64,000 nucleotides of DNA, taken from the NCBI RefSeq assembly GCF_029946165.1, contig NZ_JAQSDZ010000010.1, positions 124,001 through 188,000 on the forward strand, given 5' to 3'. The translations under genes were made by a program, and so were the position numbers. This DNA comes from Methylotenera sp. Its GTDB lineage: Bacteria > Pseudomonadota > Gammaproteobacteria > Burkholderiales > Methylophilaceae. The notes below the pieces were generated by a model. That model had not been told where the DNA came from, searched no databases, and worked only from the letters and a program-made list of their open reading frames with translations. Below are positions 1-15,726 of the stretch, piece after piece; within the stretch, counting starts at the first letter, position 1; each line of letters begins with the position of its first letter.

Positions 1-1
1 C

Positions 2-880
2 CATAAGTACAGCTCTAGGGGCGACGGCGCTTTTATCGCAGTAAATTGCGGAGCGATTCCAGATAACTTAATGGAAAGCGAGTTCTTTGGCTATAAAAAA
101 GGTTCTTTTACTGGTGCTAACCAAGATAAAGAAGGGTTGTTTCAGGCGGCGAATGGCGGAACCTTATTTTTAGATGAAGTCGCTGATTTACCGTTGCCGA
201 TGCAAGTCAAACTTTTACGTGCGATTCAAGAGAAAAAAGTGCGCATGGTAGGTGGCGCTAATGAAGAAGCCGTGGATGTGCGCATTATTAGCGCCACTCA
301 CAAAAATCTGGCTCAAATGATGGATGCAGGCTTGTTTAGACAAGACTTGTATTACCGCCTCAACGTTATTCAGCTTAAGATGCCTTCTTTGCGCGACCGC
401 CCAAGTGACATTCCTTTACTGGCTAATTTATTACTCGCAAAATTATGTGCCTACCAAAAAATTAGCATGCCAGAACTGGATAGCGAAGCGCAGGCATACC
501 TCTCTAAAATGCAGTTTCCTGGGAATGTCCGCGAGTTAGAGAATATGCTAGAGCGCGCTTTGGCAATGAGTGATGGCAAATTGATTACGATTGAAGATTT
601 AAATTATGGAAGTAACGACAGCACGCCGGCCACAGGATTAAGTGCTGAAAAAAATTCTACATTTAATGCGGAAAAACCACTTAATCTCAACTTATCTGAT
701 TATCTTGAAGATGTTGAGAAGAAAGCGATTATTAAGGCGTTAGAGAAAACCAACAATAATAAGACAGCCGCAGCAAAATTGCTCGGCATTAGCTTTCGCA
801 CTTTGCGTTACAGACTAGCTAAACTTGGTTTAGCAAAAGAGAGTGATTTGGATCCAGATTTTGAAATCGATGAAGCTTAG
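2..880 (+). CDS. Sigma-54-dependent response regulator, PilR-like (5' truncated by window edge)
   Basis: The reading frame is open from base 2, so the gene begins outside the window; 292 residues are visible. They cover most of a sigma-54 AAA+ domain: the GSFTGA loop that contacts sigma-54, a Walker B motif GGTLFLDEVADL and the arginine-finger region FRQDLYYRL. A Fis-type helix-turn-helix follows near the C-terminus (NKTAAAKLLGISFRTLRYRL). The family uses ATP to open sigma-54 promoters. The short spacing after the AAA+ domain and the FRTLRYRLAKLG ending resemble PilR, the type IV pilus regulator, but the receiver domain and any partner kinase lie outside, so that identity is an inference. A hairpin overlapping the stop codon probably terminates transcription. 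Confidence 0.85.
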   Translation, partial: HKYSSRGDGAFIAVNCGAIPDNLMESEFFGYKKGSFTGANQDKEGLFQAANGGTLFLDEVADLPLPMQVKLLRAIQEKKVRMVGGANEEAVDVRIISATHKNLAQMMDAGLFRQDLYYRLNVIQLKMPSLRDRPSDIPLLANLLLAKLCAYQKISMPELDSEAQAYLSKMQFPGNVRELENMLERALAMSDGKLITIEDLNYGSNDSTPATGLSAEKNSTFNAEKPLNLNLSDYLEDVEKKAIIKALEKTNNNKTAAAKLLGISFRTLRYRLAKLGLAKESDLDPDFEIDEA

Positions 881-911
881 TTAAACTCAAGTTTACCTAA
901 GCTTCATTTTA
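871..911 (+). terminator. Rho-independent terminator after the sigma-54 regulator
   Basis: A 10-bp perfect stem (TGAAGCTTAG at 871-880 with CTAAGCTTCA at 898-907) is extended inside by TAAACT/AGTTTA and followed by TTTT. The left arm contains the stop codon of the upstream gene. It also separates that gene from the convergent exchanger gene. Confidence 0.7.
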
Positions 912-934
912 ATAAGCTGTTTATATTAATAACT

Positions 935-1936
935 TTAACTTAACACTAGCGCCAAATAAGTCACATACATCGCGCCATTCACTAGCAAATGCCAAACGCG
1001 AATACCGCCTTTTGCAACTAAGTAACGCAGCCAGATGGATGCCAGTAAAGTCATTGCAATACCTAACACAACCTCTTTACGCGGCTCCCAAGGTGTTAAC
1101 ATAATCCCTATCGCTGGTAATAATGTCCCTTGAAACACCATGGCGCCAGTAATATTGCCAAATGCCAAAGTGTCTTTGCCTTTGCGTATCCATAAAATAC
1201 TGTTCACTTTTTCAGGCAATTCAGTCGCAATCGGAATAATGAGTAAAGATAACAATAACGCCGAAATACCGAGGATTTGAGAGGCTGCTTCAACGCCATG
1301 AATAAAACCTTTAGCGCCGGCAATCAGCAAGCTCAGACCTAGTAACAACTGAATAATAATCACCACCATATTATTTGGCAAACCAGTTTTACATAGGAAC
1401 ATATCGCCGCCTGCTTCTGTGGCATGACCGTCTTGCACCAAAGCTTTTGATGCATTGATCGTCATCATCACGTAAACAACATAAATTAATACCATGCAAG
1501 CACCCAAGCCATAGCGAACCGTTGTTAATGTGTGCGGTACGTACATAGCCACTGCAGCAAAAGTAAAAGCCGCAATGAAATAATTAAGATCGCGGGTTAA
1601 CCCAGTACGCTCTGGTCTTAAATGCCCTTGCGTGCCACGACGCTTCCAAACAGAAATCGCCATGAGCGATATGGATAAAGTAGCTAACATTAAGGGCGCA
1701 CCTAAAATGGAGCCGACGCCAATTTCTTCATTGGTTGCCACGTTTTGAGTACCCGCTAATAAAGCCAGTAAAGGCACCATGGTTTCAGGCAAAGCTGTGC
1801 CTACCGCTGCAAATATAGAGCCTGTCACGCCTTCAGAAATACCAAGCTTTTCGCCTAAGTGTTCTAGTGCGTTGGTAAACACTTCTGCCGCGATTAAAAT
1901 CACGATCAACATGGCGAATAACTCTAAAAATATCAT
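935..1936 (-). CDS. Sodium/calcium exchanger (CaCA) family membrane protein
   Basis: This 333-residue protein is almost entirely hydrophobic, with about ten membrane segments. Two inverted alpha-repeats can be seen: SIFAAVGTALPE near residues 40-52, and LLIIPIATELPEKVNS around residues 233-248. The acidic LPE motifs are the cation-binding core of the CaCA superfamily (YrbG/ChaA-like). It probably exchanges Ca2+ or another cation for Na+ or H+ at the inner membrane; the ion cannot be told from sequence. It is transcribed alone, convergent with the upstream regulator and divergent from ampD. Confidence 0.85.
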   Translation of the reverse strand: MIFLELFAMLIVILIAAEVFTNALEHLGEKLGISEGVTGSIFAAVGTALPETMVPLLALLAGTQNVATNEEIGVGSILGAPLMLATLSISLMAISVWKRRGTQGHLRPERTGLTRDLNYFIAAFTFAAVAMYVPHTLTTVRYGLGACMVLIYVVYVMMTINASKALVQDGHATEAGGDMFLCKTGLPNNMVVIIIQLLLGLSLLIAGAKGFIHGVEAASQILGISALLLSLLIIPIATELPEKVNSILWIRKGKDTLAFGNITGAMVFQGTLLPAIGIMLTPWEPRKEVVLGIAMTLLASIWLRYLVAKGGIRVWHLLVNGAMYVTYLALVLS

Positions 1937-2042
1937 CTGACGCTTCCCTAACTATTGCAAAATTGAAGTAAATTTTTGTTTATACCGTCATTTTATCGGA
2001 ATACTGCAATTTACAACTAAATTTCGCATAAAATTAACCTTT

Positions 2043-2612
2043 ATGAAATCTTATACAATCAATGAAGCTGGCATGGCGATTAACGCGCAATATATCGCAT
2101 CGCCTAACTTTGACGCTCGTCCTGCCAGTAAACCCACCAGTAAACCAGAAAGTGAAATAAGCTTAATTGTCATTCACAACATCAGCCTGCCGCCAAGCCA
2201 GTATGGTGGAAATGGCATTATTGAGCTATTTACCAATCAACTTAATCCAGACGAGCATCCTTATTATGCGGAAATATACACGCGTAAGGTATCTTCGCAT
2301 TTTCTGATTCGACGGGATGGCGAACTCATACAGTTTGTGTCTTGTCTAGATCGTGCTTGGCACGCCGGTGTGTCAAATTGGAATAATCGGGAACGTTGCA
2401 ACGACTTCTCGGTCGGAATAGAGCTCGAAGGTTCAGACTTTGAAGCATTTGAGCCAGCACAATACCTTACCCTGAAAAATTTGATAACAAGCCTGACTGA
2501 AGCTTACTCAATTCAAGCTATAGTGGGACATTCTGATATTGCACCTATTCGCAAAACAGACCCTGGGCCATATTTTGACTGGTCTCAAATAGATAACATT
2601 AACAAAAAATAA
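2043..2612 (+). CDS. ampD: 1,6-anhydro-N-acetylmuramyl-L-alanine amidase AmpD
   Basis: A cytoplasmic zinc amidase of peptidoglycan recycling that cleaves the peptide from anhydro-muropeptides. The 189-residue length is normal for AmpD. The amidase_2 fold shows its zinc ligands: the His in IVIHNISLPP, and the His and Asp of VGHSDIAPIRKTDPGP near the C-terminus. There is no signal peptide, which fits AmpD rather than periplasmic AmiD. Any effect on a beta-lactamase cannot be judged because no ampC or ampR is present. The RND efflux genes follow 20 bp downstream. Confidence 0.92.
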   Translation: MKSYTINEAGMAINAQYIASPNFDARPASKPTSKPESEISLIVIHNISLPPSQYGGNGIIELFTNQLNPDEHPYYAEIYTRKVSSHFLIRRDGELIQFVSCLDRAWHAGVSNWNNRERCNDFSVGIELEGSDFEAFEPAQYLTLKNLITSLTEAYSIQAIVGHSDIAPIRKTDPGPYFDWSQIDNINKK

Positions 2613-2632
2613 GAAACGAATACTCTTAGAAA

Positions 2633-3766
2633 ATGCAAAAAAATATCAAACTATTCTTTATTGTAATAATTTCCACCTTAATGGTGGCTTGTGGCGCTAA
2701 AGATGCGGCTTCGGAAAAATCTCAGCTCGATAAAAAAGTGGCAAAGCCAACACTGGTAACGGTCACTCAAGTAAAAAATCAAGCAGTTGAAACAAGTGAA
2801 GAAGCCATTGGCATGCTTGAAGGATTAACCAACCCAACTATTTCAGCTGAGGTCGCTGCGCGTGTCGTAAAAATTCATGTAAATACCGGCGAAGCCGTAA
2901 AACAAGGTCAACTCATCGTTACCTTAGATGCATCTGATTTTGGAATGCAACGTAACGAAGCTCAAGCAGAAGTAGCGCGAATCCAAGCTTTATTATCGAA
3001 TCAAATTAAAACTGTTGAACGCAACCAAGCGCTGGTGAATAAGAAATTTATTTCACAAAATGCGGTGGATAATGAAGTGGCGCAACAGAATGTATTGAAA
3101 GAACAATTAATCGGCGCTAAAGCCCGTGTGGGCAGCATTAACCATACAAGCAGTAAAACCAAAATCTATGCGCCAGCCAGTGGTAATGTTGAAAAAAAAC
3201 TAGTAGATGACGGCGAGTTTGTAAAAGTGGGTGACCCTATGATTATGATAGTTTCTAAGCAGCATCTGCGCGCTCATCTGCCCTTTCCTGAATATATAGC
3301 AGCAAAACTCAAACCCGGTTTAGAAGTACGCCTCACTTCACCCACCAGCGAGACTATCATCAAAAGCACCATTCACGATTTAAAACCAATGATCGTTGAA
3401 GGCAGCCAAACCGTAGATGTCATTGCAGACATAATAGGTTCACCCGATTGGCAACCTGGTGCCAGCGTAACTGGAACAGTGATTCTAGGTGAACAAGCTG
3501 CCGCTATGATGGTACCCGAGCAAAGCGTAGTGCTACGCCCTGCGGGTGAAGTCGTGTATATCGTGCGTAATAATAAAGCCTATCAGGCCATCGTGAAAAC
3601 AGGCGCACATCAAAATGGCATGGTTGAACTGCTCAGTGGTGTCAAAGAAAATGACACCATCGTGGTGGATGGTGCTGGCTTTTTAACTGACGATACTGAC
3701 ATTAAAATTGCAAGTACCCCAACCGATGCAAATACCGATAAAGCTGCTAACACGCTTAAAAAATAA
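2633..3766 (+). CDS. RND efflux periplasmic adaptor (membrane fusion protein), lipoprotein
   Basis: This 377-residue protein starts with a signal peptide ending in a plausible lipobox (MVAC, Cys near residue 20), so it is probably anchored to the inner membrane. The order is that of HlyD/AcrA adaptors: a first lipoyl half (AARVVKIHVNTGEAVKQGQ), a coiled-coil hairpin around residues 100-150, a second lipoyl half (KIYAPASGNVEKKLVDDGE), then beta-barrel and membrane-proximal domains. It should link the pump encoded 33 bp downstream to an outer-membrane channel; no TolC-like gene is present here, so the channel must be encoded elsewhere. Substrate unknown. Confidence 0.92.
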   Translation: MQKNIKLFFIVIISTLMVACGAKDAASEKSQLDKKVAKPTLVTVTQVKNQAVETSEEAIGMLEGLTNPTISAEVAARVVKIHVNTGEAVKQGQLIVTLDASDFGMQRNEAQAEVARIQALLSNQIKTVERNQALVNKKFISQNAVDNEVAQQNVLKEQLIGAKARVGSINHTSSKTKIYAPASGNVEKKLVDDGEFVKVGDPMIMIVSKQHLRAHLPFPEYIAAKLKPGLEVRLTSPTSETIIKSTIHDLKPMIVEGSQTVDVIADIIGSPDWQPGASVTGTVILGEQAAAMMVPEQSVVLRPAGEVVYIVRNNKAYQAIVKTGAHQNGMVELLSGVKENDTIVVDGAGFLTDDTDIKIASTPTDANTDKAANTLKK

Positions 3767-3799
3767 CACCGTGACTCTCAAAGACAAAGTAATCCGCAC

Positions 3800-6700
3800 A
3801 TGACCTTGCCAGAACTATCCATTAAACGCCACGTTCTAACTTGGATGATCTCTGGCGTGATTATTCTCTTCGGCATCATCGCCTACCAGCGCATCGGTGT
3901 AGATCGCGTGCCTTCGATTGATTTTCCTGTCATTACGGTGAATACCGTGTTGCGTGGTGCTAACCCTGACGTGGTTGATACCAGTATTACCAGCATCATT
4001 GAATCTGCTATTAACACTACTCCGGGTATTGAGCATATTCAATCAGCTTCATCACCTGGCGTGTCTAGCATTAGCATTACCTTTGCGCTAAGTAAAAACA
4101 TAGACGTCGCTTATAACGAGGTGCAATCCAAAGTAAATCAAATAGTGCGCCGTTTACCTACGGACACTGATCCACCTGTCGTTCAGAAAGTAGATACCAA
4201 CGCATCGCCAGTTATTTGGTTGGCATTAAGTGGTGATCGAACCATTCAACAACTTAACTTGTATGCCAATAATGTACTAAAAAAGAAATTTGAAACCATC
4301 AATGGCGTGGGTGAAGTCACCCTAGGTGGGCGCAGAGATCGTGTGATTCGCGTTAACATTCAACCAGATCGTATGGCAGCCTACAAACTTACTGCCCAGG
4401 ATTTAATTACCGCTTTTAATCGCGAACATGTCCAACTTCCAGGCGGGTTTCTCGTCAGCTCACAAGCAGAACAATTACTTAAACTAGATCTTGAATTTCA
4501 TAAAATTTCAGACTTAGCCAATATGGTTATTGTAGATAAAGTTGGCGCGCCTATTCGGCTTAAAGATGTTGCAACAGTGGAAGATGGCATTTCTGATAAC
4601 CGTCAGATAGCCCGTTACAATGGTAAACCAACAGTTGGAATTGGTATGGTTAAAATTGCCAATACCAATACTGTCGACATTATTAAAGAAGTTGAACGTA
4701 GACTGGAAAGTGATATTCGCCCCAATTTACCTGCTGGTATGTTGCTGGAAATCTCAACTAACGACGGCATTTTCATCAATCAGTTAGTCGCTTCGTTGAA
4801 AGAACATCTGGTAGAAGGCACCTTGTTTGCCGCCCTGATTGTACTGATTTTTATGCGGTCGTTTAGCTCTACATTAATGATTTGTTTAGAAATTCCCGTA
4901 TCGCTATTAGGTGCCATTGCCGTAATGTATTTTGCTGGCTATACCTTTAACAGCATGACCTTGCTTGCATTATTATTGCTGATTGGCGTGGTGGTCGATG
5001 ACGCCATTGTGGTGCGCGAGAGTATTTTGCGACATATGGAAGGTGAAGTTGGCGAAGGTATTAGAGCAATCGATATAAAAAATCCACTAGCGGTTGCCGC
5101 ATTTCGTACCAAAACCACTATTTTAGGCAGTAATGAAGTGGTATTCGCAGTACTAGCCTCCTCAGCATCCCTCGTTTGCATATTCGCTCCCGTGATTTTT
5201 ATGGATGGCATCATCGGCATGTTTTTTAAATCTTTTGCAGTGGTCGTCACGTTCGGCGTACTGGCATCGCTGCTGGTTTCTCTCACGCTCACACCAATGT
5301 TGTGTTCGCGCTACTTAAGCGTCACCCACAATGAAAATGCGGTTTACAAAGCGGTTGGACGCGTATTATCCCGCATGGATGTGGTCTATAAAAAGCTACT
5401 TTATTCATCACTCAACCATCGCGGTTTGGTCTTGTTAATTACGCTAATTTTTGTTGCGGTGAGCGGCTTTTTCTCTCTTAAATATGTAGAGAAAGATTTT
5501 GTACCAGAAACTGATGAAGGCAGTTTCAGTATCAATATTAAAACACCGCTAGGTTCCAACTTAGACTACACCGACTCACGCTTGAAATTAGTAGAAGCAA
5601 CGCTCGCGACCCATAAAAGTGAAGTCGAAAGCTACTTTGCTACGATAGGTGCGGGCTCACGCGGACAAGTTAACCAAGGTAATGTGAATGTGCGTTTAAA
5701 ACCCAAAGAGGAGCGCGCTAAAAGCCAACAAACGCTAATTAAGGAGTTAAAAAAAGAACTAGATCAACTCCCCGGCGTGCGCGCTATTCCTTCTCCTAGC
5801 TCTATCGCACGCGGTCAACGTTCTGAAAAGCTTCAATTCAATCTCACTGGCGTAAATTTACAAGAAATCGGTCGTATTTCTCAACTCTTACAGAAAGAAT
5901 TAAGCACCAATAGCGACATTGGTAAGGTTGATGTAGATGTGCAGTTAGATTTACCACAACTCAATATGCAGATTGACCGACTCAGAGCATCTGCACTTGG
6001 CATTAGTGCTAATGATATCGCCACTGCGGTTTCCCTCTATGCTGGTGGCATTAACATAGCCAAATATAATGAATTGAATGGTGATGGTCAGCGTTATGAC
6101 ATCCGTGTAAAAGCCAATGAATCTGAATTAGAAAATATCGCTGATTTAAATAAAATATACCTACGCAGCAGTAGTGGTGAATTAGTCAGAATCGATGCAG
6201 TGGCAAGCTTTAATAAAGAATTAGGCGCTGCAGTCATTGGTCGCTACGACCTACAATACGCCGTTAACTTTTACGCCAATCCTGCTGTTCCTCTTGGTGA
6301 GGCAGTCGACATAGTGAAAGCCACCGCAGCCAAAATTGTGCCACCTGATTACACACTCAAACTCACAGGGCAAGCAGAAGAGTTCGGCAAAACCATGAAA
6401 AACATTAAGTTTGTATTCGCTCTAGGTTTTCTTTTACTCTATATGGTACTCGCCAGCCAATTCAACTCATTCATCCAGCCGCTATTCATCATGCTGGCAC
6501 AACCGCTCGCTATTATTGGTGGCTTAATCGCCCTACTTTTGACAGGCAATACTTTAAACATTTACTCAATGATAGGCTTGGTATTGCTGATAGGTTTAGT
6601 CGCTAAAAACTCTATTTTGCTGGTTGATCTCACTAATCAACTTGTAGAAAAAGGCGCCAGTATTAACGATGCCCTCAAAGAGGCTTGTCCTATTCGTCTG

Positions 6701-6901
6701 CGCCCAGTAGTCATGACCTCACTCACCATTATTCTAGCGCTGTTACCAGCGGCGCTAGGCCTAGGAGCAGGTTCAGAAACCAACAAACCGCTATCAGTCG
6801 CGATTATTGGCGGGATGATTTCCTCAACCCTATTAACCTTAGTTGTAGTGCCAGCGGCCTATTCATTGGTGATGGGTGGGCTTAAAAAATTGAAGCATTA
6901 A
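3800..6901 (+). CDS. RND efflux pump, inner-membrane transporter (AcrB/MexB superfamily)
   Basis: At 1033 residues this is the usual RND length. It has one N-terminal membrane segment, a large periplasmic loop, a block of segments around residues 335-540, a second periplasmic loop, and a final block around 860-1020. The proton-relay motif GVVVDDAIVVRE, with paired aspartates, lies near residue 400, and the second half carries GLVAKNSILLVD. It is a proton-driven exporter working with the adaptor encoded immediately upstream. The sequence resembles the MdtB/CzcA-like branch loosely; whether it exports organic drugs or metals cannot be settled here. Confidence 0.93.
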   Translation: MTLPELSIKRHVLTWMISGVIILFGIIAYQRIGVDRVPSIDFPVITVNTVLRGANPDVVDTSITSIIESAINTTPGIEHIQSASSPGVSSISITFALSKNIDVAYNEVQSKVNQIVRRLPTDTDPPVVQKVDTNASPVIWLALSGDRTIQQLNLYANNVLKKKFETINGVGEVTLGGRRDRVIRVNIQPDRMAAYKLTAQDLITAFNREHVQLPGGFLVSSQAEQLLKLDLEFHKISDLANMVIVDKVGAPIRLKDVATVEDGISDNRQIARYNGKPTVGIGMVKIANTNTVDIIKEVERRLESDIRPNLPAGMLLEISTNDGIFINQLVASLKEHLVEGTLFAALIVLIFMRSFSSTLMICLEIPVSLLGAIAVMYFAGYTFNSMTLLALLLLIGVVVDDAIVVRESILRHMEGEVGEGIRAIDIKNPLAVAAFRTKTTILGSNEVVFAVLASSASLVCIFAPVIFMDGIIGMFFKSFAVVVTFGVLASLLVSLTLTPMLCSRYLSVTHNENAVYKAVGRVLSRMDVVYKKLLYSSLNHRGLVLLITLIFVAVSGFFSLKYVEKDFVPETDEGSFSINIKTPLGSNLDYTDSRLKLVEATLATHKSEVESYFATIGAGSRGQVNQGNVNVRLKPKEERAKSQQTLIKELKKELDQLPGVRAIPSPSSIARGQRSEKLQFNLTGVNLQEIGRISQLLQKELSTNSDIGKVDVDVQLDLPQLNMQIDRLRASALGISANDIATAVSLYAGGINIAKYNELNGDGQRYDIRVKANESELENIADLNKIYLRSSSGELVRIDAVASFNKELGAAVIGRYDLQYAVNFYANPAVPLGEAVDIVKATAAKIVPPDYTLKLTGQAEEFGKTMKNIKFVFALGFLLLYMVLASQFNSFIQPLFIMLAQPLAIIGGLIALLLTGNTLNIYSMIGLVLLIGLVAKNSILLVDLTNQLVEKGASINDALKEACPIRLRPVVMTSLTIILALLPAALGLGAGSETNKPLSVAIIGGMISSTLLTLVVVPAAYSLVMGGLKKLKH

Positions 6902-6930
6902 GGCCACTTAAAGACTAATAAGCATGCTAC

Positions 6931-7866
6931 TTATTTCTTGCCTAAACTTATCGCCAACACTCCAATCAACACCAAACACGTTCCAGCTAATTGCAACAAG
7001 GTAATATCTTCACCTAAAAATATACTGGCTAAAAATATCGTCGATACTGGGCCGATTGAGCTAATAAGCGCGGCCTTGCTACTGCCAATTTTATGTATGC
7101 CAACATTTAATAAAATTGCAGGGAACACTGTGGCAACCACCGCCATTAACATGCTAAGTAAATAAACTTGTGTAGGCAAATGCAAAATCTTCACCTGATG
7201 CGAGGTACTGCCGTAATGTGCCGCGCTCGCTGCCGTGGCAGCAAGCATCGTATACGCAGTAAACAACGATGCTCCTACTCGTGGAATCAATCTGCCACTC
7301 GCAATTAAGTAAGCAGCATATGCCACGGCGCTAGCCGCGACTAAACTAGCACCAAGTATAGTTTCAGCGGAACCTGATTTTACGATAAGTACATCATGCC
7401 CAACAGCTAAAGCCACACCCGCATAGGTTGCCAACAGAGCAAAGTAGACGCGTTTGCCGATACGGTGTTTGAACATGGCTGCGCTTAGCAAAATCACGAT
7501 TGTGGGATAGATATATAAAATGATTCGCTCTAAGCCCGCGGTCACATAGACTAGCCCTGCAAAATCTAACAACATAGGAACATAACCGCCCATAATTCCC
7601 ATCAAAGCGATTACCCAAGCATCGTAACTTGATATTTTTGGTACTGAATCAGATGCGCGCGCCCAAATCGCCAATGCAATAAAAAATGGCGCTGAGAATG
7701 CCATACGTAAAGCGATTAACGTAGAAGCATCTACTGGAAATGGCTCTGCATAAGCATAGGCGATTTTCACCATAATCGCTTTAGATGAGACAGTGACGGC
7801 AGCAGCCAGCACCATTAATGCACCAATTAAGGCATCGCGCGAGGTTTGAGTGTTTTGGGATTGCAT
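6931..7866 (-). CDS. EamA/DMT-family membrane exporter
   Basis: This 311-residue protein has about ten hydrophobic segments arranged as two EamA repeats; the second ends in the family-typical SSIGPVSTIFLASIFLGE. EamA proteins export small metabolites; the founding E. coli member exports cysteine and O-acetylserine, but family substrates vary widely. The ATG is preceded by AAGGG with 6 bp spacing, and that Shine-Dalgarno lies inside a small hairpin. Upstream is a structured leader with a Cys-rich small ORF, which suggests controlled expression. The 3' end converges on the RND pump gene, 29 bp away. Confidence 0.88.
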   Translation of the reverse strand: MQSQNTQTSRDALIGALMVLAAAVTVSSKAIMVKIAYAYAEPFPVDASTLIALRMAFSAPFFIALAIWARASDSVPKISSYDAWVIALMGIMGGYVPMLLDFAGLVYVTAGLERIILYIYPTIVILLSAAMFKHRIGKRVYFALLATYAGVALAVGHDVLIVKSGSAETILGASLVAASAVAYAAYLIASGRLIPRVGASLFTAYTMLAATAASAAHYGSTSHQVKILHLPTQVYLLSMLMAVVATVFPAILLNVGIHKIGSSKAALISSIGPVSTIFLASIFLGEDITLLQLAGTCLVLIGVLAISLGKK

Positions 7867-8051
7867 ATATTGCCCTTAAATTAGGGCTCAATGGGATGAA
7901 TGACTAAAGACAACCGCGGAGAGCCCACGGTTGCTAAATTGATGACGACCTAAATTACATCAAAGCAACCGCAGCATACAATGGCCAGAAGCCATAATGC
8001 TTTTCGGTTGTTAATGACCGCATTTGCGGTAATGTTGTAATTGGTTGTCAT
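7867..8051 (-). promoter_or_regulatory. Candidate leader-peptide attenuator upstream of the EamA exporter
   Basis: On the minus strand four arms alternate: CAACCG (8010-8005), CGGTTGCT (7971-7964), AGCAACCG (7935-7928) and CGGTTG (7916-7911). Arm 1 can pair with 2, 2 with 3 (8 bp), or 3 with 4, which are mutually exclusive choices. Arm 2 overlaps the Cys codons of a 33-codon ORF. Further down, GGGCTC (7926-7921) can pair with GAGCCC (7889-7884); the latter overlaps GCCCT (7887-7883), which otherwise pairs with AGGGC (7876-7872) and covers the exporter's Shine-Dalgarno. No strong U tract follows arm 4, so control of translation looks likelier than termination. All pairings are read from sequence; the regulatory role is inferred. 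Confidence 0.5.
7950..8051 (-). CDS. Putative 33-residue Cys-containing leader peptide
   Basis: An ATG-started 33-codon ORF ending in TAG, upstream of the EamA exporter on the same strand. Its C-terminal part is hydrophobic, and residues 26-29 read Cys-Cys-Gly-Cys (codons 7976-7965). Those codons overlap one arm of a set of competing hairpins, as in amino-acid attenuators. No clear Shine-Dalgarno precedes the ATG. A promoter-like sequence ends about 10 bp upstream, so translation would be from a very short leader. It could instead be a small membrane protein or a chance ORF; the surrounding pairing pattern is the main reason to list it. Confidence 0.4.
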   Translation of the reverse strand: MTTNYNITANAVINNRKALWLLAIVCCGCFDVI

Positions 8052-8061
8052 AAGCTTATGT

Positions 8062-8090
8062 ACTTTACTCGACCAGTTTTATCTGGTCAA
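8062..8090 (-). promoter_or_regulatory. Putative sigma-70 promoter for the EamA leader
   Basis: On the minus strand TTGACC (8090-8085) and TAAAGT (8067-8062) are separated by 17 bp and match the -35 and -10 consensus at 5/6 and 4/6 positions. The start point would fall a few bases before the leader ATG at 8051. The element lies within a perfect-stem hairpin (8065-8096). Confidence 0.4.
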
Positions 8091-8096
8091 GAGTAA
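8065..8096. other. Inverted repeat between GNAT gene and EamA leader
   Basis: TTACTC-GACCAG and CTGGTC-AA-GAGTAA form a 12-bp stem with a short bulge and a 6-base loop. It lies 15 bp beyond the GNAT stop codon and could stop that transcript, but no U tract follows on either strand. It overlaps the putative leader promoter, so it might instead be an operator. Confidence 0.35.
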
Positions 8097-8110
8097 GCCC
8101 AAACAATACT

Positions 8111-8650
8111 TTATTTTGGGATGAACTTTTCTAGCGTTTCTAATTGTAAACCATCCAATTTAGGTTGCCAAACGTCTGGGTTAACTGGAAATTCACCAAC
8201 AATACCAGTACGCACATAACCGCGTCTCTCATAGAATTTGATTAACTCGAGCCTTACCGTAATCACATGCATTTGAAACTGCTCTATGTTCCATATTTGC
8301 CTGGCCAGACTTTCAGCCTCAATTAGTAAGCGTTTACCAATACCTTTCGCTTGTGTCTGAGGATGCACAACAAACATGCCAATATGTGCAATATTGTGGT
8401 CATTTCCTTTCCTTACCTCTTTTTCAAGGCAAATTGAGCCAAGCAATTCCTCATCATTCAAGCACAGCAAAATAATGTTGTTTTCAGAATCAATGAGACG
8501 TTTAACCTCGTTAACAGAAGTCCGTAAGCCATCAAGAATATCCGCTTCCGTGGTCCAACCCGCGCGGCTAGGCTCCCCACGATAAGCCATATTCACCAGC
8601 TTCACGATGGCTTCCACATCGGTTGAAGCCGCTTTTCTGAAATGTTGCAT
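8111..8650 (-). CDS. GNAT-family N-acetyltransferase
   Basis: A 179-residue single-domain protein. The acetyl-CoA binding motif A is clear: MFVVHPQTQAKGIGKRLL, with the QxxGxG signature (QAKGIG). The C-terminal IKFYERRGYVRTG is the typical GNAT motif B tail. It should transfer an acetyl group from acetyl-CoA to an amine, but the acceptor is not predictable and the neighbours give no clue. It ends 60 bases before the start of the EamA leader ORF and is probably a separate unit. Confidence 0.85.
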   Translation of the reverse strand: MQHFRKAASTDVEAIVKLVNMAYRGEPSRAGWTTEADILDGLRTSVNEVKRLIDSENNIILLCLNDEELLGSICLEKEVRKGNDHNIAHIGMFVVHPQTQAKGIGKRLLIEAESLARQIWNIEQFQMHVITVRLELIKFYERRGYVRTGIVGEFPVNPDVWQPKLDGLQLETLEKFIPK

Positions 8651-8819
8651 ATAAAAATTATCTTCTGTCTAAATGATGAAAAAATTTAGCTAAGTGATGC
8701 TAGTTTGGCTTGTGTTGGATAAAGCATCTACTGATGCTAATATCTCACATCTGCTTGATTGCAGGTATGCTCTAGAGTTGACTTACTTGAAAAAAAACAA
8801 ATAATATTTAGGGGGAAAT

Positions 8820-10169
8820 ATGTCAGAGAATCAAACACCCGTCGTCTTTACGGGAAAAGCGGGGGAGTATTTTGGTATTTGGATTGTGAATTTACTGCTT
8901 TCCATTGTCACTTTAGGTATTTATTCAGCTTGGGCAAAAGTGCGCCGAAAAAAATATTTTTACAATAACACGCTGGTCGATGGCGTTGGTTTTGATTACC
9001 ACGCGAACCCTATCAATATTTTAAAAGGCCGCATCATCGCCTTTGTTTTATTTGTCATTTACAGCGTTGTTTCTGGTTTTAACCCGATATTTGGCGTTTT
9101 GATGGGGCTCGCTTTATTCCTTGCGCTACCTTGGATTATCGTTCGCGGCATGATGTTTAATGCGCGTAACTCCAGTCACCGCGGCTTACGTTTTGATTTT
9201 AATGGAACATACGGTCAGGCTATCAAGGTATTTATCGGCTATACATTGTTAATTATCGTCACATTAGGCTTGGCTATTCCGTTTGTAGCACAACGCACCC
9301 AAAAATTTATTATATCTGGTCATAAATTTGGGGTGACAAATTTTAAAATGGAAGCTTTAGTGAAAGATTTTTACAAAATCTACCTCGTCATTTTCATCAT
9401 TCCATTATTAGGTATTGTCGCAGCAATTGCCATTCCTGCTTATCAACAATATAAAATTAAAGCTAGTCATGTTAGCGCATATCAGACCCAACAGTTCTCT
9501 CATGCCTCAACTAGTATAAAGGCTGAAATGGACATGGGTGGTTTTATTAAAGTAGCTGATGTGACCACGACTGAATCTGTAACATCTGAAAATTATGTGA
9601 CTGAAGATAACGTAACAGATGAGGCAGCAATGTCTGAAGAAGATTATCTCAAAAATTTAACCCCTGAAGAGCTTGCCGAATATAACAAATTGATTAAGGG
9701 AGTTGAAGCAAATAATCCTGAAACAGACATGACAACACAAAAAAAAGATCCACTAGCAGACGCATTTGCTGGGCTAATGGGTAAATGGGGTGTTGCGGCA
9801 GCAGTATTAGCTGGTTTAATTGGCTTATTACTCTATCTTGCGGTCATATTTTCATTCGCTGCTTATATGAAATCACGTATTCATAATCTCGTTTTTAACA
9901 ACACCTCGCTTGAACATATCGGCTTTTTTAGCAACCAACGTATGCGTGATTTAGTCTTACTCTACATCACCAATACTATTGTTTTACTCTTCACTCTTGG
10001 TCTTGCAACGCCTTGGGCACAAGTGCGCATGGCGAGATATACTGCAAATCATTTGGCGCTTACAGGTGAAACAGATTGGGACAAATTTGTAGGCGAGAAA
10101 AAAGATGCATCACGTGCATTAGGTGAAGAAATTGCCGATATGTTTGATGTTGATATTTCATTCGGTTAA
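8820..10169 (+). CDS. DUF898 (YjgN-like) membrane protein with pilin-like segment and acidic spacer
   Basis: A 449-residue protein made of DUF898-type membrane repeats, seen in SAWAKVRRKKYFYNNT near residue 40 and again in PWAQVRMARYTANHLALTG near the C-terminus. Function in the family is unknown. In the middle, about residues 195-215, GIVAAIAIPAYQQYKIKA strongly resembles the N-terminal helix of type IV pilins. It is followed by an acidic, Thr/Glu-rich spacer (about 235-320) before the last membrane block. A strong AGGGGGAAAT precedes the ATG. The M48 peptidase gene starts 8 bp downstream, so the two are probably co-transcribed and may act together at the membrane. Confidence 0.8.
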   Translation: MSENQTPVVFTGKAGEYFGIWIVNLLLSIVTLGIYSAWAKVRRKKYFYNNTLVDGVGFDYHANPINILKGRIIAFVLFVIYSVVSGFNPIFGVLMGLALFLALPWIIVRGMMFNARNSSHRGLRFDFNGTYGQAIKVFIGYTLLIIVTLGLAIPFVAQRTQKFIISGHKFGVTNFKMEALVKDFYKIYLVIFIIPLLGIVAAIAIPAYQQYKIKASHVSAYQTQQFSHASTSIKAEMDMGGFIKVADVTTTESVTSENYVTEDNVTDEAAMSEEDYLKNLTPEELAEYNKLIKGVEANNPETDMTTQKKDPLADAFAGLMGKWGVAAAVLAGLIGLLLYLAVIFSFAAYMKSRIHNLVFNNTSLEHIGFFSNQRMRDLVLLYITNTIVLLFTLGLATPWAQVRMARYTANHLALTGETDWDKFVGEKKDASRALGEEIADMFDVDISFG

Positions 10170-10177
10170 TCAGTTAC

Positions 10178-11227
10178 GTGCAATTTGAAGCAGAATATTA
10201 CGATGGCATCAGCCCCCGCGCCAAGCGGGTGCTGGTGGACATTGTAGACAGTTACTTTACTTTTACGGTAACGACTACCAATGCTGATGAAACTATTAGT
10301 CATCAGCCAATCAAAGTATTAATCAAGGATTGTCATGTACAAGCAAGACTTGGTAGTGGCAAACGACTGATTGATTTACCTGACGATAGCCGTTTAGAAA
10401 CAGACTTTAAAGACTTAGAACGTTGTTTACCTGCAAAACCAGCGAACAGATTTTGGCAAGGTGTACATTATGCCGAAACTCACAAACTTGTGATTCTTAT
10501 TGCCTTTGTTGGCATTGCACTGGCAAGCGCTGTATTACTTAAATATGGCGTACCTGTCATTGCTAAATATGCAGCATTAGCAACCCCTATTAGCATGGAA
10601 AAAGATTTAGGTAAACAAACCCTAGATTCGCTAGACAGTGAAAAACTTGGCTATTTTGAAGCCTCGAAAATACCCGCGACAAAACAAAAAGACATCACCG
10701 CCGCACTCGCTGCTATGTGTGCCAAAACCAACAATTGCCCTGCCTACCAATTAAATTTTAGAAAAAGCCCTATTATTGGCGCGAACGCCTTTGCCTTGCC
10801 TGGCGGCTATATGGTCATCACCGATGAGTTGATTGATTTGGCTAAAAATAATGATGAAATCATCGCCGTGTTAGCGCATGAATTAGGCCATGTTAAAGGC
10901 CGTCACGCTTTGCGACAAACCTTGCAAGGCACAGTTTCTGGGCTGATTATCCTCGCCATCACAGGTGACGTAAGTAGCATAGCGTCTGGCTTACCAGCCA
11001 TAATGATGAATTTGAGTTATTCTCGAGAGCTAGAAAATGATGCAGATAATTACTCTTTGCAATCACTAAAAGCGGCATGTATTCCAACCAAATCATTCGC
11101 TATGCTCTTAATGAGATTAGAAAAAAGTCATGGCGGTGGCGGTTCAATGCCAGAAATGATTTCATCGCATCCTGATACCAAAGCGCGGATTGTGCCATTT
11201 TTAAAAGTTCATAGTCACTGCAACTAA
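10178..11227 (+). CDS. Membrane-anchored M48-family zinc metallopeptidase
   Basis: 349 residues, starting at GTG just after the DUF898 gene. An N-terminal soluble region of about 100 residues is followed by one membrane segment (about 105-125) and an M48 peptidase domain. HELGH near residues 234-238 supplies two zinc ligands and the catalytic Glu; the downstream ENDAD supplies the third ligand. It is related to HtpX/BepA-type quality-control proteases, but without the TPR repeats of the second M48 protein in this window. The DUF898 neighbour may be a partner or target; this is inferred only from gene pairing. Confidence 0.87.
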   Translation: MQFEAEYYDGISPRAKRVLVDIVDSYFTFTVTTTNADETISHQPIKVLIKDCHVQARLGSGKRLIDLPDDSRLETDFKDLERCLPAKPANRFWQGVHYAETHKLVILIAFVGIALASAVLLKYGVPVIAKYAALATPISMEKDLGKQTLDSLDSEKLGYFEASKIPATKQKDITAALAAMCAKTNNCPAYQLNFRKSPIIGANAFALPGGYMVITDELIDLAKNNDEIIAVLAHELGHVKGRHALRQTLQGTVSGLIILAITGDVSSIASGLPAIMMNLSYSRELENDADNYSLQSLKAACIPTKSFAMLLMRLEKSHGGGGSMPEMISSHPDTKARIVPFLKVHSHCN

Positions 11228-11374
11228 GCCTCACGCGAGTAGGTCTAGCCTGCAGAATCTTTTCATTTCAGCCATTGCTTCAACAAACATTCACATTCCA
11301 TTCATCAATCCTTCACATTTCAATGACATTCTAGCCTTCATACTAAAAGGAAAGAATAATAGAAACAGGAGGTT

Positions 11375-11914
11375 ATGATGTCACTCAAGATGCGTTTTTA
11401 TATCAGTCGTATGCATCAATTAGATAGTTTTTTATGTATTGCGGTAAACCACACTAGCCAATACAGATTAATACGTCACTTTTTTAGAATAACCAGCAGA
11501 CTTGGTGATGGCATATTCTGGTACGGACTAATGGCTGGCATTATGCTACTACATGGCATGGATGGTTTAATGCCAGTGATACATATGGCGCTGGCAGGCC
11601 TAAGCGGCACTTTGCTATACAAATGGTTGAAAGGTAAAACCCTAAGACCTCGTCCATACGAAGTGCATCAAGACATTTGGCTGACTGGCACGCCGCTGGA
11701 TAAATTCAGCTTCCCTTCAGGTCACACTTTGCACGCAGTTGTGTTTAGCTTAGTCGCGATTGGCTACTACCCACAAATCGCCATCATTGTTGTGCCATTT
11801 GCAGTGCTAGTAGGATTATCGCGTGTAGTGCTAGGTTTACACTACCCTAGCGACGTGATTGCTGGCGCTGTGATTGGTGCGACGATCGCTAGATTGTCAT
11901 TTTCTCTTGTTTAG
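11375..11914 (+). CDS. PAP2-family phosphatase
   Basis: A 179-residue membrane protein with the three phosphatase signatures in order: KGKTLRPRPYE, FPSGHTLHAVV and SRVVLGLHYPSDVIAG. The conserved His residues of motifs 2 and 3 are present. Members dephosphorylate lipid phosphates such as undecaprenyl pyrophosphate, phosphatidylglycerol phosphate or lipid A. The substrate is not determined. GGAGG lies upstream of adjacent ATG codons (11375 chosen). The following 294 bp hold a dispersed repeat and no gene. Confidence 0.87.
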   Translation: MMSLKMRFYISRMHQLDSFLCIAVNHTSQYRLIRHFFRITSRLGDGIFWYGLMAGIMLLHGMDGLMPVIHMALAGLSGTLLYKWLKGKTLRPRPYEVHQDIWLTGTPLDKFSFPSGHTLHAVVFSLVAIGYYPQIAIIVVPFAVLVGLSRVVLGLHYPSDVIAGAVIGATIARLSFSLV

Positions 11915-11978
11915 TCATCTAATAGTGAACTTTGGACTCACTTAAATATAGTTGTATTTTAGCTAAATTATCAAATAT

Positions 11979-12190
11979 CCGTCATACCAGCGAAGGCTGG
12001 TATCCAGTCATATCTCAATGCAAGTGATTATAATTTAATGCTTTAATATTGAAACCTGACTGGATTCCGTCCTTCACGTGTGAATAATGCGCTTCAGCAC
12101 ATATATTCCACGGGGATGCCAAGCACTGGTACGACGAAATGACGAACATTTGATAATGTTTATTCAAAACAACGTGTCAAATCGATTCTT
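11979..12190. repeat. Dispersed inverted-repeat element, diverged copy 1
   Basis: Starts CCGTCATACCAGCGAAGG and ends near GAAATGACGA (12146), with a tail CAAATCGATTC shared with the element at 28471-28633. The central part (ATCTCAATG, GTGATTATAATTTAATGCTT) also aligns with that copy. Its right arm is interrupted by about 55 extra bases. It fills most of the gap between the PAP2 gene and the phospholipase-like gene. Confidence 0.7.
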
Positions 12191-12208
12191 GTAATGATTT
12201 CCAGTAAT

Positions 12209-13069
12209 CTAATGAAAAGCATCTTCAACCAAAGTCTTTTGATAATATTGAATCGGCGTTGAGTGCACAATATACAAGTGTTTTAAACATTGCTCACGCC
12301 AAACATTCAACTGATCCACACTGAGATTCTTGAGCTCTGGCTCTAATAATGGATTCTTACCATTGAGCACCTCACCGATATCCGCCACAGCGACTTGCGT
12401 TTTAGCCACATAGTAGACAAAGTGCTTAAACACACGCTTATCAAGCACCTGCACCGCTTTATAAATCAATGTTGGTAGTTTGACTGCACGTAGTACGCCA
12501 TCCCAGAATGATAGGCGCTTTAAAGCCTTAATGGTGACATGCACGGGGCATTCAAATTGAATAGAAATAAACGCAGCAATCACGGCTTGGTGTTTATTTA
12601 ATAGCTTTGTTACTGATGCATCTAACAATGGCGCCAAATGGCCGTCCATTGCCCATTCAGAGGCTATATGCGTAAACACCTCATTTTTATGCCACATCGC
12701 CTCGTGCGCTGGAACAAAATGGTTATGCGCAATCACATCAATATATAAGTGGCTGATATAGCCAATGGCAATCGCCGTTTCTTCTTCTGTGCGCGCAGAT
12801 TGCATCAGTTGATGACCATTCTCCCAAAGATGAGTCTTGCGATAGTGAGGGCTCACAATCGCCAAGTCAGGCAAGCAAGCACCTGCCATCACTAGCTCAG
12901 GAAAGTTTTTGATTGCGCGTTGCAAGCGTGGATCCAACAGCGGCATTGCCCAAAGCAACGACTGCGCAAAATAGAGATGCGTCACCAACCCCCAAGCATT
13001 CGCATCCACTGAATAAAAGCAGCATGGCAACCACCAACAATAATATTTAATAAATTTTGGTATTTGCAT
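12209..13069 (-). CDS. Zinc-dependent phospholipase C-like protein
   Basis: A 286-residue protein with an N-terminal hydrophobic stretch that may be a signal peptide (mature end near DANAWG). The body matches the zinc-dependent phospholipase C/S1-P1 nuclease-like fold: WGLVTHLYFA near the N-terminus, LPDLAI, and clustered His/Asp residues (GYISHLYIDVIAHNHFVPAH) that would bind zinc. Proteins of this type are widespread and mostly uncharacterised, so lipase activity is not established. It stands alone and is divergent from the glycosyltransferase gene. Confidence 0.65.
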   Translation of the reverse strand: MQIPKFIKYYCWWLPCCFYSVDANAWGLVTHLYFAQSLLWAMPLLDPRLQRAIKNFPELVMAGACLPDLAIVSPHYRKTHLWENGHQLMQSARTEEETAIAIGYISHLYIDVIAHNHFVPAHEAMWHKNEVFTHIASEWAMDGHLAPLLDASVTKLLNKHQAVIAAFISIQFECPVHVTIKALKRLSFWDGVLRAVKLPTLIYKAVQVLDKRVFKHFVYYVAKTQVAVADIGEVLNGKNPLLEPELKNLSVDQLNVWREQCLKHLYIVHSTPIQYYQKTLVEDAFH

Positions 13070-13249
13070 AGCATGTAATTTGCCATGCGGTGATTAAGCA
13101 TTAGTGACAGATAGATGACTATTTAGTGAAATTCTAAGGGTTTATTGAAGCGTTAAATAAATTTCATTAAACCGTCATATTGGCTCGCTATCGTTCAGTT
13201 TAACAACGGGCTAATTAACCACTTGATTTAATTGAATGAACTCTAAACT

Positions 13250-14455
13250 ATGAAAATATTATTTATCTCAGATGTCTATTTTCCGCGAATTAATGGCGTA
13301 TCGACTTCTATCAGGACATTTGTTTTGCAAATGCAGAAGTTAGGTCATGAAGTGCATTTAATAGCACCTGACTACGATGTAGTGACAGAAGATGAAGCTT
13401 GGATTAAGCGCATTCCAGCACGTAGCATCTATTTTGACCCTGAAGATAAACTCATGAAATACGGCGAGGCGCTACAATTATTGCCCACGCTTGAAAAAGA
13501 AAAATACGACATTATTCACGTACATACGCCCTTTGTGGCGCATTACTTAGGTCTGACGCTTGCAACTCAACTGAATATTCCATGCATCGAAACTTACCAT
13601 ACCTTCTTTGAAGATTATTTGCATCACTACTTACCATGGATGCCTAAGTCTATAGCACGTGGTATTGCTAGAATGATTTCCAAACGCCAATGTAATGCGG
13701 TTGATGCCATTGTCGCTCCATCAAACCCCATGTTGGATGTATTACGCAAATATGGAGTTAACGTGCTATCCGAAGTGATTCCAACTGGGTTACAAGACAC
13801 TAGCTTTACCGAGGCAGATGGCCAAGCATTTAGATTGAAATATGGTATTGCTCTAGATAGGCCGATGTTGCTGTATGTAGGTCGTGTTGCATTTGAGAAG
13901 AATATCGATTTCTTATTAGAAATGACTAAGCTACTCGCGGAGAAACGACCAGATGTTTTATTGGTGGTGACTGGCGAAGGCCCAGCAGAGGCGAGTTTAC
14001 ATAAACTTGCCAAAACATTAGAGATAGAAAACAACGTTCAATTTATCGGCTATTTAGACCGCAACAAAGAATTGAATGCCTGCTATGAATCTGCTGATAT
14101 TTTTGTGTTCGCTTCTAAAAGTGAAACTCAAGGCTTGGTGCTACTAGAAGCCATGGCGCAAGCCACGCCAGTAGTGGCGATTGCCGAACTTGGCACGGCC
14201 TCTATTCTAATTGAAGGAAAAGGCGCGTTGATTGCGCCAGATGAAACTGCTAAATTTGCAGATAGAGTGCATCAGTTATTACTGAATCCTGAGCATAGAT
14301 TTGAACTGGGTAAACGTGCTAAAAGTTATGCTTTGGACAAATGGACTGCAACATTGCAAGCGCAACGGATGATTAAATTCTATGAAGAAATCATTCGCAA
14401 TCCATCGCTACGTCAAGCTTATGCAAAGACGCATCTTAACCCTGTAAAAGGTTAA
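13250..14455 (+). CDS. Glycosyltransferase family 4 (GT-B fold)
   Basis: A 401-residue protein. The N-terminal half opens with SDVYFPRINGVSTSIRTF, the acceptor-side motif of GT4 enzymes such as the PimB and SqdX groups. The C-terminal half has YVGRVAFEKNIDFLL and the nucleotide-sugar E-x7-E motif within FASKSETQGLVLLEAMAQ. It likely adds a hexose to a lipid or glycolipid at the membrane face; donor and acceptor are unknown. It is a single-gene unit, convergent with the DAACS transporter gene. Confidence 0.88.
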   Translation: MKILFISDVYFPRINGVSTSIRTFVLQMQKLGHEVHLIAPDYDVVTEDEAWIKRIPARSIYFDPEDKLMKYGEALQLLPTLEKEKYDIIHVHTPFVAHYLGLTLATQLNIPCIETYHTFFEDYLHHYLPWMPKSIARGIARMISKRQCNAVDAIVAPSNPMLDVLRKYGVNVLSEVIPTGLQDTSFTEADGQAFRLKYGIALDRPMLLYVGRVAFEKNIDFLLEMTKLLAEKRPDVLLVVTGEGPAEASLHKLAKTLEIENNVQFIGYLDRNKELNACYESADIFVFASKSETQGLVLLEAMAQATPVVAIAELGTASILIEGKGALIAPDETAKFADRVHQLLLNPEHRFELGKRAKSYALDKWTATLQAQRMIKFYEEIIRNPSLRQAYAKTHLNPVKG

Positions 14456-14479
14456 TTGCGAAGTGAGTAAATTATCGAC

Positions 14480-15721
14480 TTAAGTTGATTTCTGCATCAC
14501 AAGCTTTTGCACAACTAGGCTGCCGACCATATCGCCCTCTACGTTCACAGCGGTGCGTAATGTATCAAGCAGCCTATCAACAGGCAGCAGAATAGCAATC
14601 GCTTCGGCAGGTAAGCCTACAGACTGTAATACCATCACCATAGTGACCATGCCCGCACTAGGTATGCCGGGCGCCCCCATAGCGGCTATCATGGCTGTAA
14701 AGAACACTATAAGTTGCTGACCCATACTCAGCTCTATACCAACCAAATTAGCAATGAAGATTGCCGCGGCAGCTTCATATAATGCCGTGCCATCCATATT
14801 GATGGTGGCACCTAATGGTAGTACAAAGCCTGCTATTTCAGGTTTTACGTGTAAATGCTGAGTAGCGCAGCGTAAAGTGACTGGTAGCGTCGCTGAACTT
14901 GAACTTGTCGCGAATGCAGTAATAAGAGATTCACGTGCGCCACGCCAAAACCATAGTGGTGACCGGCCAGTGAATAAATATAAGATCAAAGGTAATAAGA
15001 TTAAACCGTGGACTAACAGTGAGCCAACGACTACGGCAACAAACTTAGCTAAGGTGCTCAACATCGCAGCATCTTGTACTGTAATTAACTTAATCAATAG
15101 CGCCATAATGCCCAGTGGCGCTAAGCGCATCACCCAGCTCACAATGTGCATAGTCACATCTAAGCCTTCTTGCAATAGCGAAAGGATGTTTTTGAAACGC
15201 TCTCCCCCCATGACGAGCGTGATGCCTAGAATAAGCGCAAATACCACGACTGCAAGCACATTACCTTGAGACAAAGCCGTAAATGGATTGAGAAATAAAC
15301 CATGAAGAAACTGCGCAAAAAACTCGGGCAAAGGTAATTGCTTAGCCTCAAAATTTTGCATGGCATCCTGAAACATCACCAACTGTAAGCCCGTTCCTGG
15401 CTTAAAATAATTGCTTGCGACTAACGCTAACACCATTGCAATAGTCATACTACTGATAAAAAACAGTAAGGTCTTCACCCAAACCTGGTGTATTTGCTGA
15501 TGTTGCCGTAAATTAGCAATCCCCACACTAATAGAGCAAAATACTAGTGGAATCAAGATCATTTTGAGCAAATCAATAAACAAGGTGCCGACTAAACCTG
15601 ATGCGTAAAGGCTAGTCTGCACTAGATTACTTTCAGAGCCTAGCGAATGAAAATACAAGCCCAGCCCAACACCAAACACAGCACCTAATAATATTTGGAC
15701 GTTAAGGCTAGGGAGTTTCAT
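14480..15721 (-). CDS. Dicarboxylate/amino acid:cation symporter (DAACS/GltP family)
   Basis: 413 residues with eight membrane segments and two re-entrant loops. The serine-rich loop AFATSSSSATLPVTL and the NMDGTALY motif, both substrate and Na+ binding elements of the GltPh/DctA fold, are intact. It imports glutamate, aspartate or C4-dicarboxylates with Na+ or H+; specificity cannot be assigned. It starts only 5 bp after the RsmB-like gene, so the two are probably co-transcribed despite unrelated jobs. Confidence 0.92.
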   Translation of the reverse strand: MKLPSLNVQILLGAVFGVGLGLYFHSLGSESNLVQTSLYASGLVGTLFIDLLKMILIPLVFCSISVGIANLRQHQQIHQVWVKTLLFFISSMTIAMVLALVASNYFKPGTGLQLVMFQDAMQNFEAKQLPLPEFFAQFLHGLFLNPFTALSQGNVLAVVVFALILGITLVMGGERFKNILSLLQEGLDVTMHIVSWVMRLAPLGIMALLIKLITVQDAAMLSTLAKFVAVVVGSLLVHGLILLPLILYLFTGRSPLWFWRGARESLITAFATSSSSATLPVTLRCATQHLHVKPEIAGFVLPLGATINMDGTALYEAAAAIFIANLVGIELSMGQQLIVFFTAMIAAMGAPGIPSAGMVTMVMVLQSVGLPAEAIAILLPVDRLLDTLRTAVNVEGDMVGSLVVQKLVMQKST

Positions 15722-15726
15722 GGTGT

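Follow-up and report, generated by a model that had tools for sequence, protein, structure and literature searches.

Within the window, by which we mean the whole analysed stretch of 64,000 nucleotides, itself part of a 2.94-Mb genome, a leader of about 190 nt lies on the minus strand between a GNAT-type gene upstream and a gene for an EamA-family transporter. The leader contains a short upstream ORF (uORF) and a series of arms that can pair in alternative ways, the last of them at the ribosome-binding site (RBS) of the transporter gene. The features are listed below in the order in which they are transcribed.

8062..8090, minus strand: predicted promoter from a consensus scan, with -35 TTGACC at 8090-8085, a 17-nt spacer and -10 TAAAGT at 8067-8062
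7950..8051, minus strand: predicted uORF of 33 codons plus TAG, MTTNYNITANAVINNRKALWLLAIVCCGCFDVI, predicted to be leaderless or nearly so
8005..8010, minus strand: arm 1, CAACCG, identified by sequence, with arm 2 as its partner in the best fold
7992..7997, minus strand: conserved Leu-Trp codons, TTA TGG
7965..7976, minus strand: Cys-Cys-Gly-Cys codons, overlapping arm 2 and present mainly in the window's family
7964..7971, minus strand: arm 2, CGGTTGCT, with covariation in 2:3
7925..7935, minus strand: arm 3, AGCAACCGTGG, with the core AGCAACCG at 7935-7928, supported by covariation and fold
7921..7926, minus strand: arm 3b, GGGCTC, resembling the RBS side of 5:6, with weaker covariation in 3b:5
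7911..7919, minus strand: arm 4, CCGCGGTTG, containing CGGTTG, with covariation and paired in the best fold
7884..7889, minus strand: arm 5, GAGCCC, partner of 3b or of arm 6, with covariation
7872..7876, minus strand: arm 6, AGGGC, with the exporter Shine-Dalgarno, 5:6 covariation and pairing in the best fold
6931..7866, minus strand: gene for an EamA-family (DMT) transporter of 311 aa (Pfam PF00892, 107.7 bits against a cut-off of 28.2)

The exporter ATG is at 7866, with arm 6 directly 5' of it. The protein can be assigned to the broad EamA family only, the TIGR00950 and YddG models scoring below their cut-offs; the first-pass annotation had considered it a cysteine exporter, an identity that goes beyond this assignment. 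The GNAT acetyltransferase gene (8111-8650, minus strand) is directly upstream of the leader, and a similar frame precedes the leader in one relative, L074, where the leader looks degenerate. A 1033-aa ORF (3800-6901, plus strand), presumably an RND-type efflux pump, stands tail to tail with the EamA gene, and similar sequence was seen by eye next to EamA in some relatives.

The uORF ATG is 10 nt downstream of the -10 box, so the mRNA is predicted to begin at or within a few nucleotides of this ATG and its translation would start without a leader. Promoter and uORF are predictions, and the consensus scan taken alone is weak (2 sites in the region against 1.0 in shuffles); the same layout, with a -10 box ending 6-10 nt before the start of a uORF of 22-44 codons, is shared by 79 leaders, and in these a conserved short ORF appears to occupy the predicted 5' end and to overlap the first arms. 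The Cys codons of the window uORF are at 7976-7974, 7973-7971 and 7967-7965 (minus strand). They, the 33-codon ORF, the four arms and the GGGCTC/GAGCCC/AGGGC trio all lie where the first-pass annotation had placed them, and its observation of a leader ORF with a four-arm set is confirmed.

Folded as a single strand, positions 8056-7850 reach -66.6 kcal/mol in comparison with a shuffle mean of -45.4 (SD 4.44, z = -4.77), and none of 200 shuffles folded as low. The best fold is the closed state, with 1:2 (enclosing a nested hairpin), 3:4 and GCCCU:AGGGC at the exporter start all paired. Between 8160 and 7850, the minus strand yielded no terminator-like site, the one such site being on the opposite strand, and helix 3:4 is not a terminator of the trp-operon type in the window leader or, by eye, in the relatives.

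Leaders in relatives and the codons of their uORFs

A DNA search of 61 genomes gave matches in 12 (E value up to 0.1). Apart from the genome of the window, four of the 12 contained the leader, at 92, 77, 78 and 69% identity, and the rest were short matches. EamA orthologs were found in 45 of 187 genomes of the window's family (E value 1e-20), and of the 31 upstream pieces that we read, from 30 loci and L006, 27 contained the leader. The covariance model built from these 27 family leaders, R1, gave strong matches (E value at most 2.2e-11) in 28 of the 187 family genomes, one per genome, a second match in one genome (G126) being left out. Across the order, R1 by itself matched 4 of 399 genomes, of which one lies outside the family. 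Two weak R1 matches, L075 and L076, were rejected as leaders on reading. The EamA search of the order matched 111 of 300 genomes, with 14 matched places left out, and we read upstream regions at 28 loci and then in 80 more pieces (10 from the family), part of the latter being counted by script and others also by eye. Among named records, the best 80 of 508 relatives were read. The same leader plan was found in Gallionella, Sideroxydans, Sulfuriferula, Methylophilus, Methylovorus, Methylobacillus and others, and also in Hydrogenophilales and Nitrosomonadales MAGs; many EamA genes further off had no leader by eye.

After removal of near-duplicates and short pieces, 181 of 218 upstream pieces were left. 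A first mechanical detector of the helix trio 3:4, 3b:5 and 5:6 was discarded as unspecific: GC-rich regions lacking any leader scored high, and the hairpin nested within the uORF (H1) was often mistaken for 3:4. A stricter version still gave scores of 50 or more in 37 of 362 shuffles, compared with 65 of the 181 real regions, and the leaders were therefore counted by promoter and uORF instead, with a rule blind to the RNA arms and to the Trp codon. The rule was satisfied by 81 of the 181 regions. Two were dropped, L142, which shows no leader features by eye, and L035, a leader with a shifted frame, giving 79 leaders; 28 come from the window's family and 29 from named records, which may share species with other genomes beyond the reach of the duplicate filter.

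In four leaders of Gallionella, Nitrosomonadales and other MAGs (L248, L256, L219 and L264), extra sequence, seemingly a further hairpin, stands between the GGGTCTGA loop and arm 5. Six MAG contigs with EamA relatives (L212-L214, L220, L254 and L265) carry names such as Leptospiraceae, Rhizobium and Sporocytophaga; L220 has a Gallionellaceae-like leader, and its record name may thus be a binning error.

The uORFs contain Trp in 77 of the 79 leaders (77 of 81 with L142 and L035 included), with at least two Trp in 13; a Trp codon stands at the control position, upstream of a gene of the broad EamA family. Leu-Trp is in frame in 73 of 79, 11-29 codons after the ATG, the Leu codon being CTG in 54, TTG in 8, CTA in 5, TTA in 4 and CTC in 2. 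The reading frame of two elements was compared in 53 divergent representatives. [CT]T[ACG]TGG was counted 55 times in the uORF frame, 4 times in one of the other frames and never in the third; the arm-2 core was located in 40 representatives and is distributed over the three frames as 10/11/19. Leu-Trp is thus frame-bound and arm 2 frame-free, which suggests that the former is held at the codon level and the latter at the RNA level.

The first-pass annotation had regarded cysteine as the signal. At least two Cys among the last nine residues were found in 23 of 79 leaders, 21 of these among the 28 of the window's family and 2 among the 51 others. In the 56 leaders without the run, Cys triplets are not enriched in the uORF frame (36 in frame versus 140 and 46 in the other frames). 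Inside the family, the arm-2 TGC-GGT-TGC is mostly kept and the flanking Cys codons drift to Arg, Tyr, Phe or His: Arg replaces the second Cys in L029, L030, L036 and L040, and the fourth is replaced by Tyr in L023-L026 and L044 and by Phe in L017 and L018. The Cys codons whose conservation was to be looked for in relatives are thus present as a run in most leaders of the window's family and in few outside it; by comparison of the uORFs, the cysteine codons appear as a local feature of one family and the tryptophan codon as the kept one. With the run in 23 of 79 leaders only and the flanking Cys drifting, we rejected a cysteine attenuator for the leader family as a whole.

Covariation of competing helices

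Partner-swap tests were based on 51 leaders with located arms; 6 lacked a usable arm 6, which left 45, 28 of them divergent. For 2:3, the 28 representatives scored 19.57 with their own partners against 16.97 with swapped ones, and none of 2,000 permutations was as high. The same zero out of 2,000 was obtained in the 28 divergent leaders for 3:4, 3b:5 and 5:6, helices on which the leaders had been selected and for which the test is biased, so that only the 2:3 and 1:2 tests are free of selection. Helix 1:2 received no support (1,626 of 2,000 permutations as high in the 28 divergent leaders), and the nested hairpin H1 within the uORF gave 0 of 2,000 in 51 representatives.

Alignment A7 comprises one leader from the window's family and 25 from elsewhere, 26 in all, and was compared with shuffles, which do not keep relatedness. 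Of the cells of the closed set, 91.2% were paired. Changes on both sides affected 10 of its pairs, compared with 2.3 in shuffles, and the covariation score was 0.170 against 0.125 (0 of 500 shuffles as high). The combination of 2:3 with a short 3b:5 was paired in 92.4% and had 17 double-change cells against 4.9 in shuffles and a score of 0.226 against 0.126 (0 of 500); only the short 3b:5 fits beside 2:3, as 2:3 and the full 3b:5 share columns. At columns 37:84, for example, the pairs were AU in 11 leaders, GC in 10, CG in 1 and GU in 1, with 3 unpaired. The full 3b:5 scored 0.126 against 0.094 (1 of 500 as high), and its pair types were matched in 312 of 500 shuffles. When the partners were shifted by 1-3 columns, pairing fell to about 20-48%. 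In helix 1:2, 91% of cells pair and one pair is changed on both sides; an extended register of 1:2 gave 80.9% paired cells, compared with 80.5% in shuffles. At columns 83 and 101 of helix 3:4, a C-A mismatch or bulged C is kept in many leaders.

In three leaders, triplets of segments were seen by eye to change together: GGGTCTT / AAGACCC / GGGTCTT in L043, GCGGACTTTA / TAAGGTCCGC / GGACTTTAT in L083 and GCGGATGACATC / GATGTCGTCCGC / GGATGACAT in L184. We scored the trio in divergent leaders that had been chosen solely by their promoter and uORF; with three short pieces (L044, L123 and L207) excluded from 53, it was above the 99th percentile of dinucleotide shuffles in 34 of 50 and weak or absent by the rule in 14. 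At least six of the 14 reflect limits of the rule, L237 having a wrong start codon and L211, L226, L243, L247 and L166 showing the trio by eye. The comparison of relatives thus points to two sets of mutually exclusive helices with covariation, 2:3 versus 3:4 and 3b:5 versus 5:6. Of the arms proposed for checking in relatives, 2:3 and 3:4 hold, as does 5:6, and 1:2 does not; the suggested alternation of GAGCCC between the GGGCTC of the 3:4 loop and the exporter RBS also shows covariation, weaker on the side of 3b:5.

A second covariance model, R2, was built from A7, the leader from inside the family being L166. It had matches in 31 genomes, 27 among the 399 sampled from the order and 4 among the 369 sampled from the class, and missed the leader of the window. 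Fourteen of the 27 order matches are genomes whose leaders built the model, so that their EamA context was given beforehand. The other 17 of the 31, several of which were also found by the EamA search, include 16 that precede EamA by tblastn and one, L285, with a truncated EamA start; the four class matches outside the order all lie upstream of EamA, the weakest at an E value of 0.0072. In L285 the leader is retained before an EamA frame of about 23 codons to the stop, apparently a decayed exporter.

Rfam gave no match at the gathering score in window positions 1-20000 and 20 related loci; two miRNA matches were at chance level (E values 8.1 and 9). The first-pass annotation knew of no such leader for EamA, and we likewise found no description of one before EamA genes in the open-licence PMC literature; the main text of PMC2965389 mentions neither DUF6 nor EamA, and that of PMC8632094 does not mention EamA.

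A putative switch and its signal

Equilibrium folding of the 79 leaders with a ribosome mask gave a mean accessibility of the EamA site of 0.43-0.47 at every ribosome position, presumably because 3:4 is so stable. This absence of a switch at equilibrium counts against the switch model, and any switch has to be kinetic; we then folded truncated transcripts, cut before arm 4, for the 51 of 79 leaders with located arms. On average, arm 3 was paired upstream at 0.84 with the Trp codon in the A site, about 0.5 with the ribosome on arm 2 and 0.43 with it at the stop codon; the mean without a ribosome was 0.66, so that absence of the ribosome does not clearly close all leaders. With three other footprint sizes, the value at Trp exceeded that at the stop in 47-49 of 51 leaders, and the reverse was seen in 1. 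In the window transcript, the value was 0.006 when no ribosome was present and 0.89 when one stood at Trp; it was 0.00 on each of the three Cys codons, 0.07 at the stop codon and 0.43 one codon earlier, at Ile33. A ribosome placed between codon 2 and two codons past Trp gave 0.84-0.95 in the window, with a dip to 0.35-0.41 at Lys17-Ala18. This pattern suggests that the switch is opened by a ribosome detained in the early uORF, no further than just beyond Leu-Trp.

The leader is probably a ribosome-mediated translational attenuator of the EamA transporter, opened by a ribosome on or before Leu-Trp at the time arm 3 emerges. The ribosome would start at or beside the mRNA 5' end and read the short uORF. 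In the closed state, 1:2 and 3:4 would be paired and arm 5 would cover the RBS, arm 6. A ribosome standing on or before Leu-Trp when arm 3 leaves the RNA polymerase would mask arm 1 and allow arm 2 to pair with arm 3; arm 4 would then be left out, and 3b, a look-alike of arm 6, could capture arm 5 and free the exporter site. With the ribosome on arm 2 (in the window, on the Cys codons), at the stop codon or missing, the switch is expected to stay closed. The competing helices, except 1:2, the in-frame Leu-Trp and the EamA context emerge from the comparison of leaders, and the direction and kinetic nature of the switch are what we infer from the folding models. The interpretation of the first-pass annotation is in this respect partly supported: a stall on the Cys codons would, by folding, keep the switch closed by blocking 2:3 (0.00 in the window), and the proposed formation of 2:3 once the ribosome has cleared arm 2 disagrees with the 0.07 at the window's stop codon.

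The candidates for the signal holding the ribosome are uncharged tRNA-Trp, a ribosome inhibitor and nascent-peptide arrest. The conserved Trp codon is weak evidence for a tryptophan signal, and induction of an exporter by Trp starvation is not obviously sensible. A U-G wobble in arm 1 that might have served as proof of the Trp codon was set aside, as another register pairs the U with A. The leader could also sense translation stress in the manner of toiL; the transporter would then export harmful compounds, and its site would open with any inhibitor that arrests ribosomes in the early uORF. The RNA mechanism would be the same as in the attenuator opened at Leu-Trp and only the signal would differ; the likelihoods of the two overlap. 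Opening is predicted for ribosome positions along the whole stretch between the start codon and the codons just after Trp, and not at one codon; this favours such a sensor, as does the opening of the topAI site by stalling anywhere in toiL, described in the consulted sections of PMC12121999. It leaves the in-frame Leu-Trp unexplained, however, and the means for free and early-ribosome transcripts are close (0.66 vs. about 0.75-0.84), and we consider it rather unlikely.

For the window's family at least, a ribosome occupying the Cys codons might report on cysteinyl-tRNA and gate a cysteine exporter. This would account for the position of the Cys codons inside arm 2, seen in the window and in close relatives, for the two or more terminal Cys in 21 of 28 family leaders and for the block of 2:3 by a ribosome on these codons in folding, and the consulted sections of PMC9031893 report cysteine-responsive leaderless short ORFs in mycobacteria. 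It is made very unlikely by the 56 of 79 leaders that lack the run and show no in-frame excess of Cys triplets, by the drift of flanking Cys even inside the family, and by the failure of 2:3 to be favoured in the window once arm 2 is cleared. Of similarly low probability is a metabolite-binding riboswitch or protein-binding site with an incidental uORF: the strong conserved 3:4 hairpin and the switch over the RBS would suit it, yet both the uORF start behind the promoter and the Leu-Trp frame are kept, Rfam has no match, and no conserved unpaired core was seen by eye in alignments A6 and A7.

Taken together, and tentatively, the leaders may form an undescribed family of leaderless-uORF attenuators of one EamA lineage, occurring in many families of the order and in a few more elsewhere in the class, in which a ribosome at Leu-Trp, placed there by the charging of tRNA-Trp or by Trp-dependent nascent-peptide arrest, frees the exporter through an RBS look-alike. 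If true, a widespread regulatory leader is absent from Rfam and gives a simple prediction of when an uncharacterised exporter is made; its conserved codons and RBS decoy would be handles on the trigger, and perhaps the substrate, of the exporter in iron-oxidising and methylotrophic bacteria.

Comparison with known systems

Translational attenuators of the ermC/ermB type follow a 1:2, 2:3, 3:4 arm logic and hide the RBS when closed. The EamA leader resembles them in both respects and differs in having no macrolide-resistance gene and in its extra decoy step (3b:5 vs. 5:6).

With the leaderless polycysteine attenuators of mycobacteria (as covered in the available part of PMC9031893) and the Cys leader ORFs of actinobacterial cys operons, for which the available part of PMC1262725 reports no conserved terminator hairpins, the window leader shares a short Cys-rich ORF and a leaderless start, predicted in the case of EamA. 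The actinobacterial leaders precede cys operons, whereas the EamA leader precedes a transporter and Cys is not conserved across its family. The uORFC-8-2 motif before cysS in Rhodobacterales, according to the parts of PMC8632094 consulted, likewise has a uORF from proteobacteria, and its first stem contains tandem Cys codons; it has an intrinsic terminator and precedes cysS, unlike the window leader, on whose strand no terminator was found.

The toiL uORF of topAI-yjhQP in E. coli, in which ribosomes stalled at any position open the topAI site, is presented in the consulted sections of PMC12121999, which also mention ermB and ermC. As proposed for the EamA leader, a short uORF with a stalled ribosome alters the pairing at the RBS of the next gene, and regulation is at the level of translation. 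Gene, uORF and RNA are different, and toiL, which carries a Shine-Dalgarno of its own, is paired to the target site without intermediates, whereas in the EamA leader several arms in succession and a decoy resembling the site appear to be interposed.
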